From Candidatus Equicola stercoris (GTDB lineage: Bacteria > Bacteroidota > Bacteroidia > Bacteroidales > Bacteroidaceae), in assembly GCA_018065415.1 (NCBI GenBank), contig JAGHTI010000023.1, forward strand, positions 1 to 55,693: a stretch of 55,693 bases of DNA, read 5' to 3'. The notes below the pieces were generated by a model. It was given only the letters and a program-made list of their open reading frames with translations. It was not told the origin of the DNA and did no database searches. This document shows, piece after piece, positions 44,773 through 54,876 of the stretch (the stretch's first letter is position 1; each line of letters opens with the position of its first letter). Both the position numbers and the translations under genes were made by a program.

Positions 44773-46032
44773 CTAATCTACGAGCGTTGGATTCTCATCT
44801 ACTTTCCATGGCAATCCCCATTTGTTGAGGGCTTCCATATATGGGTCTGGGTCAAACTCTTCAACTGTGAATACACCTGGTTTTTGCCATAGACCATTCA
44901 TAACGAGTGATGCTCCAATCATGGCAGGAACGCCTGTGGTGTATGATATTGCCTGAGACCCTACTTCTTTGTAACACTCTTGATGGTCGCATACGTTATA
45001 GATGTATATTTTTCGCTGCACACCATCCTTTATACCCGTAAAGATACATCCGATATTTGTTTTTCCTACGGTACGAGGACCGAGCGATGCAGGGTCTGGG
45101 AGTAATGTACGCAGGAACTGTATCGGTACAATTTGTTGTCCATTGTATTCTACAGGTTCTGTTCCTAACATTCCCACGTTCTCAAGGCATTTCATGTGTG
45201 TGAGATAGCTTTGACCGAATGTCATGAAGAAACGTATGCGTTTGACACCCGGTATGTTTTTTGCGAGCGATTCTATCTCTTCATGATGGAGCAGATACAT
45301 GTCTTTTTCTCCCACTCCGTCAAAGTTGTAAGTGCGGTGTATTGCCATAGGTTCTGTTTCTACCCAGTGACCATCTTCCCAATATGAACCGTTGGCACTC
45401 ACCTCACGCAAGTTAATTTCTGGGTTAAAGTTTGTGGCAAACGGGTAACCATGGTCTCCTCCGTTGCAGTCGAGGATGTCTATTGTATGGATTTCATCGA
45501 AATAATGTTTTAGAGCGTATGCGGTAAATACACTTGTAACTCCAGGGTCGAAACCCGTACCAAGCAATCCCGTGATGCCTGCTTCTTCAAAACGCTTATT
45601 GTATGCCCATTGCCATGAGTAATCAAAATATGCGGTAAAGCCCTTTTCCTTGCAGCGTTTCTCATAGATGGCACGCCATTCAGGATTGTTTGTGTCCTCA
45701 CATTCGTAGTTTGCTGTATCTACATAATGAACCTTTGTCTTCAGACAGGCATCCATTATTGTAAGGTCTTGGTACGGTAGGGCTAGATTAAGCACTACGT
45801 CAGGTTTTACCTCTTGAATCAACGACACTAATTCATCCACGTTATCGGCATTTACCTTGAAGGTGGTAATCACAGAATCAGTTTTTCCTTCCAGCTTTTT
45901 CTTTATTGCCTCACACTTGCTTACTGTACGACTGGCAATACATATCTCATTGAACACATCCGAATTCTGTGCACATTTTTGAATGGCAACTCCAGCAACA
46001 CCACCACAACCGATAATCAATACTTTTCCCAT
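44773..46032 (-). CDS. Saccharopine-dehydrogenase-like carboxy(nor)spermidine dehydrogenase family
   Basis: MGKVLIIGCGGVAGVAIQKCAQN...LALPYQDLTIMDACL...GTGFDPGVTSVFTAYALKHY. Confidence 0.9.
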   Translation of the reverse strand: MGKVLIIGCGGVAGVAIQKCAQNSDVFNEICIASRTVSKCEAIKKKLEGKTDSVITTFKVNADNVDELVSLIQEVKPDVVLNLALPYQDLTIMDACLKTKVHYVDTANYECEDTNNPEWRAIYEKRCKEKGFTAYFDYSWQWAYNKRFEEAGITGLLGTGFDPGVTSVFTAYALKHYFDEIHTIDILDCNGGDHGYPFATNFNPEINLREVSANGSYWEDGHWVETEPMAIHRTYNFDGVGEKDMYLLHHEEIESLAKNIPGVKRIRFFMTFGQSYLTHMKCLENVGMLGTEPVEYNGQQIVPIQFLRTLLPDPASLGPRTVGKTNIGCIFTGIKDGVQRKIYIYNVCDHQECYKEVGSQAISYTTGVPAMIGASLVMNGLWQKPGVFTVEEFDPDPYMEALNKWGLPWKVDENPTLVD

Positions 46033-46063
46033 ATTATTATTTGTATTTTGTCATTTTAATATT

Positions 46064-46921
46064 TTAACTGTTCAAGGCAAGAAGGATTTCCCTAATTATT
46101 TTGCATGCTACTGCTGTCGATGCACCACTGGCATCAAGCATAGGAGCAAGTTCGGTAACATCACATCCCACCACATTAAGTTCTCTGCACACATACATCA
46201 ATGCCTTCCTCAACTCTTCAAAGGTTACCCCTCCTGCTTCTGGTGTCCCCGTGCCGGGAAACACAGATGGGTCAAGTACATCAAGGTCAACAGTGAGATA
46301 TACTGGTGTGCCTGGTGTAATGCTCTTAATGGCACTGTTCACATCATCAAGTGTAAACGGATGCAGGTCAGTATGTCCTTCATGTGCAAAAGTCCATTCT
46401 GCTCTTTCTCCAGAACGAATCCCGAACTGATGTATCTTCCCATCGCCCACGATGTCATGACAACGACGGATGACACAGGCATGTGACAACCCCACCCCAA
46501 GATACTCGTCACGCAAGTCGGTATGTGCATCAAAATGAATGATTTGTACTTCAGGGTATTTCTTGTAAACCTCACGGAATGTTCCCAAGGTCACAAGGTG
46601 TTCGCCTCCAATCATGAGGGGCAATTTTCCATCCTCCAATATCTCTGCAGTACGCTCCGAGATAGCAACCAATGCCATCTCTGACGACCCCATAGGGAGT
46701 TCAATATCGCCAGAGTCGAACACTGAAATGTCTTCAAGGTCGCGGTCAAGGTACGGGGAATACGTCTCAAGTCCGTATGATTCGTGCCTTATGGCAGCAC
46801 TGCCGAATCTGGCTCCGGGGCGGTAACTGGCTGTGGAGTCAAAAGGTGCTCCGAATATCACGATTCGGGAGTCATCATAATTAGCATCACAACCGATGAA
46901 AGTCTCTATGTTTTTTTTCAT
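46064..46921 (-). CDS. speB: Agmatinase/ureohydrolase family
   Basis: GGEHLVTLGTFREV, HFDAHTDLRDEYLG, SHACVIRR, TVDLDVLDPSVFPGTGTPEAGG. Confidence 0.92.
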   Translation of the reverse strand: MKKNIETFIGCDANYDDSRIVIFGAPFDSTASYRPGARFGSAAIRHESYGLETYSPYLDRDLEDISVFDSGDIELPMGSSEMALVAISERTAEILEDGKLPLMIGGEHLVTLGTFREVYKKYPEVQIIHFDAHTDLRDEYLGVGLSHACVIRRCHDIVGDGKIHQFGIRSGERAEWTFAHEGHTDLHPFTLDDVNSAIKSITPGTPVYLTVDLDVLDPSVFPGTGTPEAGGVTFEELRKALMYVCRELNVVGCDVTELAPMLDASGASTAVACKIIREILLALNS

Positions 46922-46923
46922 TC

Positions 46924-47787
46924 TTATTGATCTTCCAGTTCAACTTTTTCCAACATCTTCTCTACGTATGCAGGGAGTGCAAAACATCCGCAATGGAGAT
47001 TTGTAGTGTAATAGCGAGTTTCTATTTTCTTTGCAGTCCACCGTGCAACATCAATGTCATCTACAGGATGATACTTCTTTGAAGCAAAACCGAATAGCCA
47101 ATACCCAGAAGGGTATGTTGGAATATGTGCCTGATAGACACGGCTTATTGGAAAACTTTCCACTATACGCTTATGGGCTTTCTGCGTCTCAAGACGGTCG
47201 TCATCATAGAATGGCGACTGATGCTGATTGACCATTATGCCATCGTCTTTCAATGCCTTGTAACAAGAACCATAGAATTCACGGGAGAAGAGGCTCTCAC
47301 CAGGACCGTAGAAACCTGCAGAGTCAACGATGATGACATCGTATTCGCCCACGATGTGCCTGACAAATCGCAATGCGTTTTGGGAATATATCGTGACGCG
47401 AGGGTCGTCAAGTCCGCTTGCTGAAAACGGAAGAAACTTTTTCGCAGCCTCAACAACTCCGACATTCACTTCTACCATGTCAATACGCTCCACTTCTGGA
47501 TATTTCAGTAATTCACGCACAACACCACCGTCACCAGCACCAAATACTAGTACCTTGCGAGGATTGGGATGCACCGCCATCGGAATGTGAGTCATCATCT
47601 CATGATAGATGAACTCATCCTTCTCGGTCATAATGATGTAGCCATCAGCTGTGAGCACGCGACCATATTCAGGAGATTCGAAAATGTCAATACGATTGTG
47701 GTCGTTCTCCTCCGAGAAGATGTGCTTATCCACCTTTATTGAAAATTTCACATTCTCGGTGTGTAATTCTGAAAACCAAAATTCCAT
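46924..47787 (-). CDS. Spermidine synthase-like aminopropyltransferase family protein with noncanonical substrate loop
   Basis: MEFWFSELHTENVKFSIKVDKHIFSEEND...VFGAGDGGVVRELLKYPEV...IIVDSAGFYGPGESLFSREFY. Confidence 0.85.
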   Translation of the reverse strand: MEFWFSELHTENVKFSIKVDKHIFSEENDHNRIDIFESPEYGRVLTADGYIIMTEKDEFIYHEMMTHIPMAVHPNPRKVLVFGAGDGGVVRELLKYPEVERIDMVEVNVGVVEAAKKFLPFSASGLDDPRVTIYSQNALRFVRHIVGEYDVIIVDSAGFYGPGESLFSREFYGSCYKALKDDGIMVNQHQSPFYDDDRLETQKAHKRIVESFPISRVYQAHIPTYPSGYWLFGFASKKYHPVDDIDVARWTAKKIETRYYTTNLHCGCFALPAYVEKMLEKVELEDQ

Positions 47788-47805
47788 TTTTCAGTATCTT
47801 TATTT

Positions 47806-49266
47806 TTAATAAACGGTTGCTTCCTTTATGACGTTCAGTCTTTCAATCTTAGGGTCCTCAGGACCTGTCATCGAACATCCTTTCTCCTTTGCGTACATGA
47901 TGTAGTCGATGATTTCCTGAGTGATACGCTCTCCTGGGGCAAGGATAGGAATGCCCGGAGGATAACTCATCACGAACTCAGTACAGATTCTTCCCTCTGC
48001 CTCACGCAAAGGTATCATCTCTTCTTTCAGTGCATAAAATGCCTCTTGCGGACTCATCACAACCGAAGGGTTGATGTATTCATGGTCAAACATACCAGTA
48101 CGGTCGCGTTTGAAACGTCTGCGTATGTCGTATAGAGCACTCACAAGTCGTTCTATCTCCCTCATGCGGTCACCGATGGAGATGTATGCAAGTGTGTTGC
48201 CTATGTCACCGAGTTCCATCTGGATGTCATATTCGTCTCTCAACAGGTCATACACCTCAATACCTGCAAGCCCCACGTCAAGTGTGAATACTGTCAGCTT
48301 TGTCTTGTCAAAGTCGTATATGGAATCTCCGTTGATAAGTTCCGAACCGTATGCATAGAAGTCGCCAATCTTGTTTATTTCCGTTCTGGCATATTCTGCC
48401 ATCTCCACCACATTACGGAAAGCCTCCTTGCCGTGGAGGGAGAGGTTGCGTCGTGAGATGTCGAGTGAAGCGAGAAGCAGATAAGAAGCACTAGTGGTTT
48501 GGGTGAGGTTTATCACCTGTCTAACATAGCCGGCACCCACCGTTGCGTTTGTCAGCAGAATGCTGCTTTGGGTGAGGCTACCTCCCGATTTGTGCATTGA
48601 CACACAAGCCATGTCTGCACCTGCTGCCATGGCAGAGATAGGCATGTCTTCACCGAAATAGAAATGCGTACCATGAGCTTCATCCACAAGCACCAGCATG
48701 CCATGGGAATGGGCAAGTTCTACAATTTTCTTGAGATTGGAACAGATTCCGTAATAAGTAGGATTGTTCACAAGGATAGCTACAGCATCAGGATTTTCCT
48801 CAATAGCTTTTTCAATCTGTGAAATCTTCATCCCGAGAGCAATACCCAACCGATTGTCAACATCAGGATTGACGTAAATTGGAGTCGCCCCATTTATTAC
48901 AAGTGCATTGATAACACTTCTGTGTACGTTTCTTGGGAGAATGATTTTCTCTCCTTTCTTGGAAGCAGCAAGCACCATTGACTGTACAGCAGACGTGGTA
49001 CCGCCCACCATCAAAAAGGCATGGTCGGCTCCAAATGCTTCTGCAGCCAGTTCTTCAGACTCCCTTATCACCGAAACAGGATGACAGAGGTTATCCAAAG
49101 GCTTCATTGAGTTCACATCTAACTCAACACACTGTTTTCCAAGTAACTTTACCAATTCTGAATTTCCACGACCACGTTTGTGTCCTGGAACGTCAAAAGG
49201 AACAATGCGGTTCCTTCTAAACTCAACAAGTGCCTCATAGATAGGCGCGAAAGACTGATTACCCAA
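47806..49266 (-). CDS. Fold-type I PLP Orn/Lys/Arg decarboxylase (probable biosynthetic arginine decarboxylase)
   Basis: VPGHKRGRGNSELVKLLG...DEAHGTHFYFGEDMP...VSMHKSGGSLTQSSILL...SYPPGIPILAPGERIT. Confidence 0.88.
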   Translation of the reverse strand: MGNQSFAPIYEALVEFRRNRIVPFDVPGHKRGRGNSELVKLLGKQCVELDVNSMKPLDNLCHPVSVIRESEELAAEAFGADHAFLMVGGTTSAVQSMVLAASKKGEKIILPRNVHRSVINALVINGATPIYVNPDVDNRLGIALGMKISQIEKAIEENPDAVAILVNNPTYYGICSNLKKIVELAHSHGMLVLVDEAHGTHFYFGEDMPISAMAAGADMACVSMHKSGGSLTQSSILLTNATVGAGYVRQVINLTQTTSASYLLLASLDISRRNLSLHGKEAFRNVVEMAEYARTEINKIGDFYAYGSELINGDSIYDFDKTKLTVFTLDVGLAGIEVYDLLRDEYDIQMELGDIGNTLAYISIGDRMREIERLVSALYDIRRRFKRDRTGMFDHEYINPSVVMSPQEAFYALKEEMIPLREAEGRICTEFVMSYPPGIPILAPGERITQEIIDYIMYAKEKGCSMTGPEDPKIERLNVIKEATVY

Positions 49267-49757: not shown

Positions 49758-50153
49758 TCAGTCATCTAAAGAATTACTTATATCATCCGCATCGAAGAAT
49801 GTGAATACATGCCCAAAGCAACCTACAGATACTGTCTTCGATTTTCCTTCGATACTTATTTCTCCAGTACTGAATACGAAATAGTTACGTACTCTCAATG
49901 TTGACTCCACCACTGTCGTGAGTAGTTTTGAGGCAATGGAGCCACCAAGCAATGACAGCCCAATCTCCAAATTAGAATCCCCAATATTTTCTGAAATCTC
50001 CTTGCTCATAGACGTGTTTATTTCGTCCATGATAGCATTTTGATGAGCCTCCTTATCTGGACAAGTAACAACCGCAACAAGTGCCACTGCCACAACAATC
50101 AGTAATAATGTTATCTTGCTGTTCATTTTGTTTGTTGTTTTTAACTTGAACAT
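49758..50153 (-). CDS. Small single-TM/secreted protein, possibly DUF4359-like
   Basis: Likely start MNSKITLLLIVVAVALVAVVTCPDKEAHQNAIMDEINTSMSKE; third gene of the helicase/ATPase operon. Confidence 0.6.
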   Translation of the reverse strand: MFKLKTTNKMNSKITLLLIVVAVALVAVVTCPDKEAHQNAIMDEINTSMSKEISENIGDSNLEIGLSLLGGSIASKLLTTVVESTLRVRNYFVFSTGEISIEGKSKTVSVGCFGHVFTFFDADDISNSLDD

Positions 50154-50166
50154 GCTACAATTAAAA

Positions 50167-51522
50167 TTATTTCAATGCATCCCAATCGTCAGCATAGTTA
50201 AATGTTGAACAGTGGTTTCCTGATTGTGAATGTTGTTCTTCTGTTCCTCTAATACTTTCAAAGATGTCCCTAAAAGGTTTCATCTTGATATCATCATGCT
50301 CTGTACTAATAGCTAAACCATAAGCAGTTGAAAGAATTGGGCAAAGTCCTCTATCTATTATCTCTGCAATTTGTTCCATAGACTTTGTGTTCCATTCCTT
50401 TTCTGATATTTGTTTAATATCTCTATATCCATCGTATGTTTCTCGAAGTATTGGGAAGGTACTACCACCACCACAATAAACAAGAGGACGATTCTTTAAT
50501 GCGTCAAGTAGTCTGTCTTGGCGCAAACTTGTCTGACGCTTGAACTCTTGAGTCAATTTGTTTCGGATATTAAAGCAGACATTATTTATCTCATTTGTAA
50601 ACGTACTTCGTCTCTGATTATCTATCTCTGACTGATCCTTTACATTGGAATCATTATCCTGTCTTATTTTCTCGTCAGCATAGGTCAGATAATTCAGCCC
50701 TTTGCTCAAGGAGAAAAAATCATATACCTGTGGCACGCCGTTTTCAATCGTGAAGAAAGAAATATCAGTTGTACCTCCACCAATATCTACCATAAGGCTC
50801 ATACCTGTAGCTATCTTCTTTTGACTAATAAGTGGTTTAAGACATGCGTACGCTTCTGGAAACACAAGCAAACCATACTCTTCTTTTATGTCATTACTGT
50901 ATGCAACTAACTCAGTCTTTTCAACCAGTTGCTCATAACTTGCATCCAGAAACTTTTGTTTGTCGTTAGCAAAAACTTCCTCGACCAACTTATAAGCAGA
51001 CGCAATGATTCGAGTAGCTATTTGTTTTGCAGTAAATACATGACTACTATCTGTAGGGGCTCCCATTTGTATGGTAAAGTCCTGTCCAAATACGTCTTCC
51101 AAATCAAACAGAATGTAAGCGATATACCATACAGAGTAGTACATAGCCTGTTCCTGTGTCATGGATCTGTCTGGTGACGAAGTCCTGAATGCATCTTGTT
51201 TGAAGTATCGTATTATTTGACCATCAAAGTTTGCTGGCAGGTAACCATAAGAGAGTTTTTTGTCCTTACCAACTCCAATAATTGATGGTAAGGTATAGAA
51301 AGATTGATTGGCATCAGCCATAAACTTGACAAAAGTATAAGTGAGCTCCACACCACCTTTGCTTTCTATGCATACCTTGGTTTGGTGTGTACCAAAGTCA
51401 AGACCGACCGTTAACATCATTCCGTCTTGCTTAACAGAAGTCAGTTCACTTTTGTCAATGCCTCGGTTGCTATATTTAGAGTCTTTAGAGAAAATAGACT
51501 TTATGTAATTCTTAGCTTTCAT
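50167..51522 (-). CDS. Actin/Hsp70-fold ATPase lacking an Hsp70 substrate-binding domain
   Basis: Phosphate-1 VGLDFGTHQTKVCIES, phosphate-2 LMVDIGGGTTDISFF, adenosine motif VYCGGGSTFPILRE; ends after the ATPase region. Confidence 0.85.
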   Translation of the reverse strand: MKAKNYIKSIFSKDSKYSNRGIDKSELTSVKQDGMMLTVGLDFGTHQTKVCIESKGGVELTYTFVKFMADANQSFYTLPSIIGVGKDKKLSYGYLPANFDGQIIRYFKQDAFRTSSPDRSMTQEQAMYYSVWYIAYILFDLEDVFGQDFTIQMGAPTDSSHVFTAKQIATRIIASAYKLVEEVFANDKQKFLDASYEQLVEKTELVAYSNDIKEEYGLLVFPEAYACLKPLISQKKIATGMSLMVDIGGGTTDISFFTIENGVPQVYDFFSLSKGLNYLTYADEKIRQDNDSNVKDQSEIDNQRRSTFTNEINNVCFNIRNKLTQEFKRQTSLRQDRLLDALKNRPLVYCGGGSTFPILRETYDGYRDIKQISEKEWNTKSMEQIAEIIDRGLCPILSTAYGLAISTEHDDIKMKPFRDIFESIRGTEEQHSQSGNHCSTFNYADDWDALK

Positions 51523-51526
51523 CGTT

Positions 51527-54500
51527 CTATATGATATTAATAAGGTTTAGAGAAATGATGTCTTCCTTTATGTCAATATGAGAGGCCTCATTGATCTGAT
51601 CAAGCCTATCCTGTTTCTCCTTCTCGTATTGCTGAACACGTGCTTTGGCAAGACGAATAACACCTTGTAATTGCCTTACGCGTTTGTCATCTGATTCAAC
51701 AACCCACTCAATTTCGTTTTCCCAATCGCGGATATAACGCTTCTGGTTCTCCATAACTGAGGTATAGTACTCGTTTGTCTGCTGAATATTACGCTGACGG
51801 TCGCTCTCAACTTGGAGTTTCAATTCAGACAGTCTTTTGCTCTTTTCTTCACTAAGAGTTTCAGCAAAATCATAACGCATATCTTGAAGCATTTCGTTGT
51901 CTATGTCATCATTGCTGGCATTATGTTCTTTGCCCTCTGTCTGTGAACGTGAAAAAACATGGTCAACCAATTCTTCATCAGCAATCACTTCCTGCTTATT
52001 TACATCGTAAAGTAGAGGCAAGAGAGTTTCCGTATGCTTCATTACACCGAGCACCTTCCTGCTGATACTAATTTGGTATAGAGCCATATAATATGACTCA
52101 CCATTATGAAGTAATTTATCTTCATTCAGAGCATAGCAGAACGATGTCTTTGATTTGTCATTCTTTTGATCAAAATAATTAAGACAAGCCTGTATAATCG
52201 GATGATAGATATTTACGAACATCAATTTATTGTTGTCGTATGCCTTCTGTTGGTTGAATGTCATTCGGATATTCATCTGATCTTCTATCTCACGTTTGAA
52301 CTGACGGAAGTTTGCTGCATTCTCGTCACCTTCAGGTTGATATGAAGTCAGGAAGTTTTGCAATACCCTCGGATTACTCAATGGCAACTGCAATTCCCAG
52401 ATGTCTTGTTCAACCTCGACAAGAGAACAAGTGCTGAGCTCTTGTCTGATGATTGACTCTAAGTAGTTACGAAGTTCGATTTCAGTAACATAGGCATTGT
52501 TGTTTTGTATTCGATTGATCTCATCCTTGAAATATGCATCATTGGTAAGAGCATTGTCCAAGCCCTCTTCCAAATGTTGGATGCTTTCCTTCTCATGTGC
52601 AACTGCCAGTTCAATCTCTTTCAGCTTCTGCTCTTTCTCCTCATTAGTCAGGCGACTTGTGTAGAGCTCTTTTTCCAATTTGTTGTAAACATCTTGAATC
52701 GTCACACGTTTGCCATCTCGTTCCAATGGAGCATCAAGTATGGCTTCCATATCTCCAATGGTTCCACGGAAAATTCCGATTCTGTCAAGTAGTCGAATAT
52801 AAATGTCTTCCTGAATAGAATCAGCAACGATTATATTATAGATGTTGACCGTTGGCGATTTCTGACCGAAACGATCAATACGACCGATACGTTGCTCCAC
52901 AATCATAGGATTCCATGGCAAATCATAGTTTACCATAGAGTTACAAAACTGCATATCAAGACCTTCACTACCTACTTCCGAAGACAAAAGAATATGAGCA
53001 TCAGGATTATTCTTGAACTCATCCAATACATCTGCACGATTTTCTACCATACCATGTATCATCAGTGTTCCGAAACCACGTTTTTTGAATCGTATCTGTA
53101 GGTATTTCAATGTTTTACGGAACAGAGCGAATATCACAATCTTCTTGGTACCATACTTAAAGACTTCATCAATTATGCGCAGGAGTTCTTCAAACTTGGC
53201 ATCAGTATAATCTTTGTATTCGTCAATACCGGCATCAAGATTTTCTTCATCATTTAGATAAGCATAAACGCTACTTGCCACCTGACGTTTCTTCTGCACA
53301 AGACCTAATGAACCTCCTTGTGTGAGAACTTCCTCGCCCCAGTCATCCGTATATGAGTTGTCATCAATATACTGCTCAATGACAGAATCAAACTCTTCAC
53401 GCTCATTTTCTGTCAATGTAACCTTTCGCATATGAGGCTTTCTTTCTGCCTGAGACAAGTCAGTAGTCACTTCACGTTTTCTTGTACGTGAGAATACGCT
53501 GTTCATCATGCTCATAGAAGAAATCAGATACTGAAGCCTTGCTCGATTCTTCATGTTATCTTCTCCATGGAGCATATTCTGAATCTCCTGATACATGGCA
53601 TTTTTACCAAAAGCTTCACCTACAGTTGTCTGGCTAGAGAAAATCTCTACCTCATCAGAGAAGAATCGAGTGATAATAGTAGCTTCGTCAAGTGTCTTAG
53701 CTATAGTTTCCAAAGGCATATGATGGTTCAAATCCGTAAGAGCCTCCACGAACGGACGGTTCTCTTGCAGACGGTTGTCAAATATTTGATAGTTATAATA
53801 CCTCGTGTTATCAAGAAGATGAAGCAGGTTGTACAGATTCTCCGTACTGATCATGATTGGTGTAGCTGTTAGGAATACAGCAGCATTTGCCTGGCTCATT
53901 ATGATTTCCGCACCCTTATAAGTCTGCGTATCTTCATTACGCATCTTGTGGGCTTCATCGCAAAGAACCAAACTGAACTTGAAATCATTCTCCGAAAGAT
54001 AATCAACAATATTAGCCAAAGCATCTTTCTTTTTCTTATCCTCTTCTTCCTTCTTCTTTGCCTTCTTCATGCGTATCTTTTCATAATTAACGATAGCATG
54101 GATTGGAGTACGTGCCTCTTGCATGTCGGCAAGTAGGTCTTTTTGTTTCTCATATATCTTGAATGTCAATCCAAACTTGAAAGATAGCTCGTTTTTCCAT
54201 TTCCTCTGTAGCGACTTTGGGCAGACGATAAGTACATGATGAAGCTCACGTCTTGCTTTAAGTTCAAGCATAATATGACCAGCCTCGATAGTTTTACCAA
54301 GCCCCACTTCATCTGCAACCAAAAGTCTGCGGTTCGGAGAGTTCAAAAATTTCAGCAATGGCTTGAACTGATAAGCACGGAACAATGTTTTGGAAGCCTT
54401 CAGAGAAGATATGGTACTATTGTTTGAACTTTTTATCTTGAAGGTTGTATTTATCTTCGAGTACTCTGAATAGGAACCAAAGATACCACTCATACACCTT

Positions 54501-54682
54501 GCGTATGGGTCAGATATATCACAGTCGGGCAATAGATTAACTTCCAATTCGTCAGTTGTTCCAATTTCCCAACTAACTTTGTAGAGTTGACGCCCTCTTC
54601 GAGCAGGCATGACTTCAATGATAGTGCCATGTCTTTTTGAGTTAACTTTTATTACTTTATTGCCTATGTTGTACTTAGCCAT
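51527..54682 (-). CDS. SNF2/RapA-type helicase with N-terminal tudor/KOW-like domain and C-terminal coiled coil
   Basis: Start MAKYNIGNKVIKVNSKRHGTIIEV (internal to the track ORF); motifs LLVADEVGLGKTIEAG, LCDEAHKMRN, FLTATPI, SSEVGSEGLDMQFCNSMVNYDLPWNPMIVEQRIGRIDRFGQ. Confidence 0.9.
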   Translation of the reverse strand: MAKYNIGNKVIKVNSKRHGTIIEVMPARRGRQLYKVSWEIGTTDELEVNLLPDCDISDPYARCMSGIFGSYSEYSKINTTFKIKSSNNSTISSLKASKTLFRAYQFKPLLKFLNSPNRRLLVADEVGLGKTIEAGHIMLELKARRELHHVLIVCPKSLQRKWKNELSFKFGLTFKIYEKQKDLLADMQEARTPIHAIVNYEKIRMKKAKKKEEEDKKKKDALANIVDYLSENDFKFSLVLCDEAHKMRNEDTQTYKGAEIIMSQANAAVFLTATPIMISTENLYNLLHLLDNTRYYNYQIFDNRLQENRPFVEALTDLNHHMPLETIAKTLDEATIITRFFSDEVEIFSSQTTVGEAFGKNAMYQEIQNMLHGEDNMKNRARLQYLISSMSMMNSVFSRTRKREVTTDLSQAERKPHMRKVTLTENEREEFDSVIEQYIDDNSYTDDWGEEVLTQGGSLGLVQKKRQVASSVYAYLNDEENLDAGIDEYKDYTDAKFEELLRIIDEVFKYGTKKIVIFALFRKTLKYLQIRFKKRGFGTLMIHGMVENRADVLDEFKNNPDAHILLSSEVGSEGLDMQFCNSMVNYDLPWNPMIVEQRIGRIDRFGQKSPTVNIYNIIVADSIQEDIYIRLLDRIGIFRGTIGDMEAILDAPLERDGKRVTIQDVYNKLEKELYTSRLTNEEKEQKLKEIELAVAHEKESIQHLEEGLDNALTNDAYFKDEINRIQNNNAYVTEIELRNYLESIIRQELSTCSLVEVEQDIWELQLPLSNPRVLQNFLTSYQPEGDENAANFRQFKREIEDQMNIRMTFNQQKAYDNNKLMFVNIYHPIIQACLNYFDQKNDKSKTSFCYALNEDKLLHNGESYYMALYQISISRKVLGVMKHTETLLPLLYDVNKQEVIADEELVDHVFSRSQTEGKEHNASNDDIDNEMLQDMRYDFAETLSEEKSKRLSELKLQVESDRQRNIQQTNEYYTSVMENQKRYIRDWENEIEWVVESDDKRVRQLQGVIRLAKARVQQYEKEKQDRLDQINEASHIDIKEDIISLNLINII

Positions 54683-54697
54683 AATCTTGATTTGTCG

Positions 54698-54705
54698 CAA
54701 AGTTA
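54698..54705 (-). promoter_or_regulatory. -7 element (TAACTTTG, minus strand) for the helicase operon
   Basis: Plus-strand CAAAGTTA 16 nt upstream of the ATG at 54682, supporting that start. Confidence 0.6.
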
Positions 54706-54876
54706 AATTCGCGGATTCAGCTAGCAAGTGCAAATTTACAACATCATTTCGTAAAAGCACTTCTCTTAGGGTTGAAATGTTACAAAAGTACAAATTATTT
54801 CCCAAAAACAAAAAACTCTCAAGAAAAATCAAATTTTAAACTGTGATACCATTATGGTTTTTTTCTCGTGGTTTTC

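Follow-up and report, generated by a model that had tools for sequence, protein, structure and literature searches.

The window analysed here is the whole of positions 1–55,693 (55,693 nt) of contig JAGHTI010000023.1 in the Candidatus Equicola stercoris assembly GCA_018065415.1. It carries three co-directional minus-strand genes at 49758–54682 (Table 1), and the open reading frames are those described in the first-pass annotation: 4 nt separate the helicase gene from the ATPase gene, and 13 nt separate the ATPase gene from the third, or 40 nt if the latter starts at MNSK. The same annotation had placed one promoter for all three at 54698–54705. A TAnnTTTG motif is indeed present there, but its selection as the sole promoter is insecure, as it is one among three such matches within 93 nt, which start at 54698, 54731 and 54783 upstream of the helicase gene; the last of them (54783–54790) is accompanied by a TTTG at 54809–54812, 18 nt farther upstream.

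The pair made up of the first two genes is bordered by a polyamine-type operon downstream and an HU-HIG gene upstream, and it lies outside any recognised defence island. With a G+C content of 0.38–0.40, against a mean of 0.40 for the window, the pair shows no compositional trace of recent transfer. None of 39 congeners has a match at E≤1e-100 to the decarboxylase of the polyamine-type operon, and this stretch may therefore be accessory within the genus.

Table 1. Positions of the genes and other features discussed, in window coordinates.
Feature	Coordinates	Strand	Description
SNF2/RapA-type helicase gene	51527..54682	-	1051 aa from ATG; first of the conserved pair
Hsp70-type NBD ATPase gene	50167..51522	-	451 aa, without substrate-binding domain (SBD); second of the conserved pair
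Small DUF4359 protein gene	49758..50153	-	131 aa (122 aa from MNSK at 50126); PF14271, 3.9e-9
Upstream region	54698..54790	-	Three TAnnTTTG (-7-like) motif matches
Polyamine-type operon	44773..49266		

The product of the third gene, which has one hydrophobic N-terminal segment and matches PF14271 above the Pfam cut-off, had been regarded as the membrane partner in a three-gene composition. The co-directional arrangement and the 13 nt gap would suit an operon that functions as a single unit with DUF4359 at the membrane. However, BLASTP finds no DUF4359 relative downstream of the pair in any of the other 47 loci described below, while 27 of 60 related genomes, almost all from the same genus as the window, encode DUF4359 at unrelated sites, and the gene occurs alone, without the pair, in about three quarters of congeners. 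A working unit of three genes is thus hardly credible; DUF4359 is a common stand-alone gene of the genus that lies outside the conserved module, and neither the proposed composition of three genes nor a membrane partner is retained. Among the congener DUF4359 genes (L059–L078 in our numbering of loci), which are found at varied sites, some are fused behind an N-terminal domain whose start resembles M.YFI..N.QQ.GP. The third-gene slot of other pair loci is occupied by different proteins, and one subclade (L020, L021, L022, L023, L024 and L035) has a leucine-rich-repeat (BspA-type) protein in this place.

Distribution and coevolution of the helicase and the ATPase

Queried plainly with the window ATPase, the genome, viral, plasmid and phage collections yield no relative. 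Nor does any of 200 further genomes from its family, and distant relatives are present in two of the 394 other genomes of the phylum sample, each with the same helicase directly upstream. The family was opened by a profile built from three ATPases, that of the window and these two phylum relatives. With this profile, a collection of 84,980 species genomes gives 46 loci, and a viral contig adds one more. The resulting 47 include the two phylum-sample genomes (as L044 and L048); a few of the 47 are near-identical, so the independent lineages are fewer. The helicase gene is immediately upstream of the ATPase gene in all 47, with gaps ranging from -14 to +15 nt.

When the 395 genomes of the phylum sample are searched with a helicase profile (E≤1e-100), three are picked out, and these are precisely the three that carry the ATPase. 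A 295-genome sample of the class contains two weaker helicases (471 and 150 bits), neither of which has the ATPase alongside. The distance matrices of the two proteins are correlated with a Mantel r of 0.91, against 0.29 for the best of 5,000 permutations, and the two trees have 19 well-supported splits in common and three in conflict. The helicase and ATPase are a rare, strictly conserved and coevolving pair with a sporadic distribution. A crude-motif search for tyrosine recombinases identified them at one locus only.

A distant version of the pair exists in Pseudomonadota and a cyanobacterium. Full-length distant relatives of the helicase are found on four plasmid records (Shinella, Aminobacter, Sphingobium and Leptolyngbya), each with an Hsp70-type protein beside it, and a 249-genome Pseudomonadota sample around a Moraxellaceae bin contains two more distant pairs, with the helicase adjacent in both. 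The Sphingobium Hsp70-type protein reaches only E 0.01 against the Bacteroidota ATPase profile; comparison of the profiles of the two ATPase groups, Bacteroidota and distant, gives a probability of 98.9 and an E value of 2e-17. At six further loci (L081, L084–L087 and L167), RapA-like SNF2 helicases are directly followed by sacsin/Hsp90-type (GHKL, PF25794) ATPases, with Pfam SACS matches of 9e-11 to 7e-19. In the helicase tree, the Hsp70-paired, distant and sacsin-paired rows form one 57-row clade apart from other SNF2 helicases; this clade contains some long branches, and its finer branching order is insecure. Another Hsp70-type protein adjoins an SNF2 helicase on a viral contig (L142, 8403–12814); that helicase falls outside the clade, on a branch that is long and unsure.

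Motifs and predicted folds

Pfam recognises SNF2 and Helicase_C in the helicase, and the Walker A (DEVGLGKT, residue 124), DEAH (residue 242) and arginine-finger (QRIGRIDR, residue 597) motifs that were noted from the sequence are all found, and are near-invariant across 45 relatives. In the predicted model (pLDDT 81.9), a small N-terminal beta module (residues 9–52) precedes the SNF2 core, an alpha+beta C-terminal region and a long helix (929–994), in agreement with the N-terminal tudor/KOW-like module and C-terminal coiled coil that had been proposed. Most of the model has the fold of RapA: 763 residues, lying between model residues 58 and 1051, align with E. coli RapA (8t0l_F, Z 21.4).

This near whole-length match is what would be expected of a housekeeping RapA, one that serves in RNA polymerase recycling, the Hsp70-type protein acting as a remodeller that aids release. 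Housekeeping is nevertheless improbable: the helicase scores 163.8 bits with the NCBIfam RapA equivalog, for which the cut-off is 576, and is found in 3 of 395 phylum genomes, the ATPase is missing from the 200 other family genomes and from 392 of the 394 others in the phylum sample, and the neighbours are often defence genes.

The first-pass annotation had recognised all three actin-fold nucleotide motifs in the ATPase; they are present, and across 46 relatives the actin-fold motifs (the phosphate and connect motifs and the GGG loop) are near-invariant. With catalytic motifs so strongly conserved in both proteins, the helicase and the ATPase are probably both active ATPases. Pfam matches of the ATPase to actin and Hsp70 families are all sub-threshold. 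Its structure, predicted from a 25-row alignment (pLDDT 84.8), matches Hsp70/DnaK NBDs at residues 35–415, with Z scores of 22–24 over 281–304 residues, and stops after the NBD in a low-confidence tail. The ATPase thus has the NBD fold and catalytic residues of an Hsp70/DnaK chaperone but no substrate-binding domain, and its earlier description as not DnaK-like holds for the missing domain and fails for the fold, which is closest to the DnaK/Hsp70 NBD. Most of its close relatives begin at the equivalent of M35 (M-ITVGLDFGT, about 51420), and the first 34 residues may therefore not be translated.

A different reading of the actin fold is that the ATPase is a partition-type, ParM-like actin, which together with a DNA motor maintains mobile elements. 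PHROG 691 ("partition protein") matches it at 1.5e-8, the BeeR filament is the top Foldseek match, and some copies of the pair are on plasmids. However, structural re-ranking prefers the Hsp70 NBDs, the constant partner is an SNF2 motor and not a ParR-type adaptor, and the copies lie mostly on ordinary bacterial contigs. We consider a role in mobile-element maintenance very improbable.

Defence neighbours and comparison with known systems

Restriction and other defence genes recur around the pair. It is flanked by Type I restriction genes at L020, L031, L036, L038, L051, L052 and L053, by Type IIG genes at L016, L030 and L035, by GmrSD at L032 and L050, and by methylases at L019, L040 (a C5 methylase) and L047. 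WYL regulators are also among the flanks, and a mad8-like protein with a PP2C phosphatase is near the pair at L008. Operon-like partners are HsdM/HsdS at L020, HsdR at L036 and L051, Type IIG at L016 and the C5 methylase at L040. At L038, McrC and an McrB with an EVE domain are directly upstream of the pair, and HsdR is in the same operon-like set. A BrxL fused to a PLD domain lies 35 nt upstream of the pair at L026, again as an operon-like partner, and brxA/brxB/brxC adjoin it at L006 (the same place as L048). Several of the assignments in this list were made via a sequence cluster with a scanned member. At L043 (3404–6951), a natural fusion joins the ATPase with an ATPase of the PtuA type (1.9e-79), and an HNH gene comes next, as in the Septu (PtuA–PtuB) layout, but this fusion was seen at none of the other loci.

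PADLOC matched 220 families in a set of 56 flanking proteins and 252 in a set of 53, versus 4 in 56 control genes from the window and DUF4359 loci, where related profiles overlap so that one protein can match several families, and where the control is rough, obvious housekeeping flankers having been partly omitted from both flanking sets. Many pair loci have no recognisable defence neighbour, and there is no recognised nuclease within the pair itself. The defence-linked partners vary by locus, and to judge from these gene arrangements none appears to be required.

Neighbours of this kind raise the question of whether the two proteins are accessory subunits of known restriction, BREX or DISARM systems, the helicase replacing BrxHII or DrmD. 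BrxHII is the RapA-like helicase of Type-3 BREX and BREX-related systems (PMC12839542). BrxHII and the DrmD of class 1 DISARM resemble our helicase in the SNF2 core, the N-terminal Tudor-like module, the RapA-like C-terminal alpha+beta domains and the company of defence genes. DrmD is also the best PADLOC match of the helicase (4e-121), and the pair adjoins brxA-brxB-brxC and sits inside Type I and McrBC operons, as listed above. The differences lie in the obligate Hsp70-type partner and in the lack of any fixed methylase, PglZ, DrmA or DrmB. The helicase scores 340.8 bits with the NCBIfam DrmD equivalog, well short of the cut-off of 610, and no more than 7 of the 43 module genomes have DUF1998 (PF09369), which represents DrmA/DrmB; the window genome has one weak match (5.3e-5), in a 2146-codon frame on another contig. 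The pair is thus not class 1 DISARM, as the first-pass annotation had held. As for BREX, PglZ frames of the appropriate size (~830 aa) occur in 3 of the 43 genomes, the others being shorter, mostly about 520 aa, and in one genome only (G423) is such a PglZ on the contig of the module, with brxA/B/C adjacent only there. As the partners also change between loci, an accessory role in these systems is unlikely.

Another Hsp70-type ATPase with a defence context is CnuD of the CoCoNuT systems (PMC11090510), which has an NBD/SBD unit and degenerate Walker-A-like motifs and works with McrB GTPases. The window ATPase differs in having no SBD, intact motifs and an SNF2 partner, and McrBC is beside few loci (L038 and probably L173). 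Compared with DISARM, BREX, RapA and Hsp70 in turn, the pair departs from each in at least one defining feature. In the excerpts of the CoCoNuT, HEPN, YprA/ARMADA, BREX-diversity, Dnd and NTP-conflict literature used here, we found no description of it.

Proposed role of the pair

The observed pairing and coevolution of the two genes, their sporadic distribution, their restriction and defence neighbours and the single fusion to the ATPase of an effector system, together with intact catalytic motifs, make it quite likely that the pair is a defence module. We favour the more specific reading that the first two genes form a portable two-gene module directed against invaders, most probably phages, and composed of an Hsp70-type switch and a RapA-like motor. 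The pair, moving between bacterial defence islands, would then most likely belong to the antiviral machinery as a component not described before. The original proposal of a helicase combined with an actin-fold switch, probably for defence, thus gains support across loci, with its membrane partner removed.

In such a module, the helicase would act as an SNF2 motor of the RapA/BrxHII/DrmD class and move along double-stranded DNA, perhaps DNA to which RNA polymerase, stalled or foreign, is bound. Its partner, an Hsp70 NBD without a peptide-binding domain, would bind the helicase directly and be seated on it as a clamp or switch driven by ATP/ADP, setting the motor to an idle or an engaged state. 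On the basis of fold, pairing and analogy, we tentatively suggest, as the mechanism that comes most naturally, that the ATPase domain gates the helicase motor. In some genomes, the ATPase may pass the engaged state to adjacent nucleases, be they Type I/IIG, McrBC, BREX/BrxL-PLD or Septu PtuA-HNH; the window pair, which has no such neighbour, would act alone or with effectors encoded elsewhere.

Eukaryotic SNF2 remodellers, such as SWI/SNF and INO80, have actin/Arp modules. Their likeness to the pair is that an SNF2 motor has an actin-superfamily ATPase as a dedicated partner; here, however, the partner is an Hsp70-type domain, and nothing indicates common descent. The sacsin/Hsp90-paired RapA-like helicases are sisters of ours and also have a chaperone-family ATPase directly adjacent, but theirs is of the GHKL type, not Hsp70. 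A general design of prokaryotic immunity is conceivable, although speculative, in which RapA-class SNF2 motors are gated by dedicated chaperone-family ATPases and serve as a portable DNA-scanning unit for many restriction systems. The gate would be of the Hsp70 type in some lineages and of the Hsp90/sacsin type in a sister lineage, in what may be a functional parallel to the eukaryotic actin/Arp modules.

If our interpretation is correct, the pair would be a new two-gene defence module, which catalogues now score as a "DrmD-like helicase" plus an unnamed protein. It would also provide a bacterial example of an SNF2 motor whose partner, of the Hsp70 type, is obligate. Whether immunity employs ATP switches of the chaperone type to regulate DNA motors would thereby become testable, with a pair that is small enough to clone and assay.
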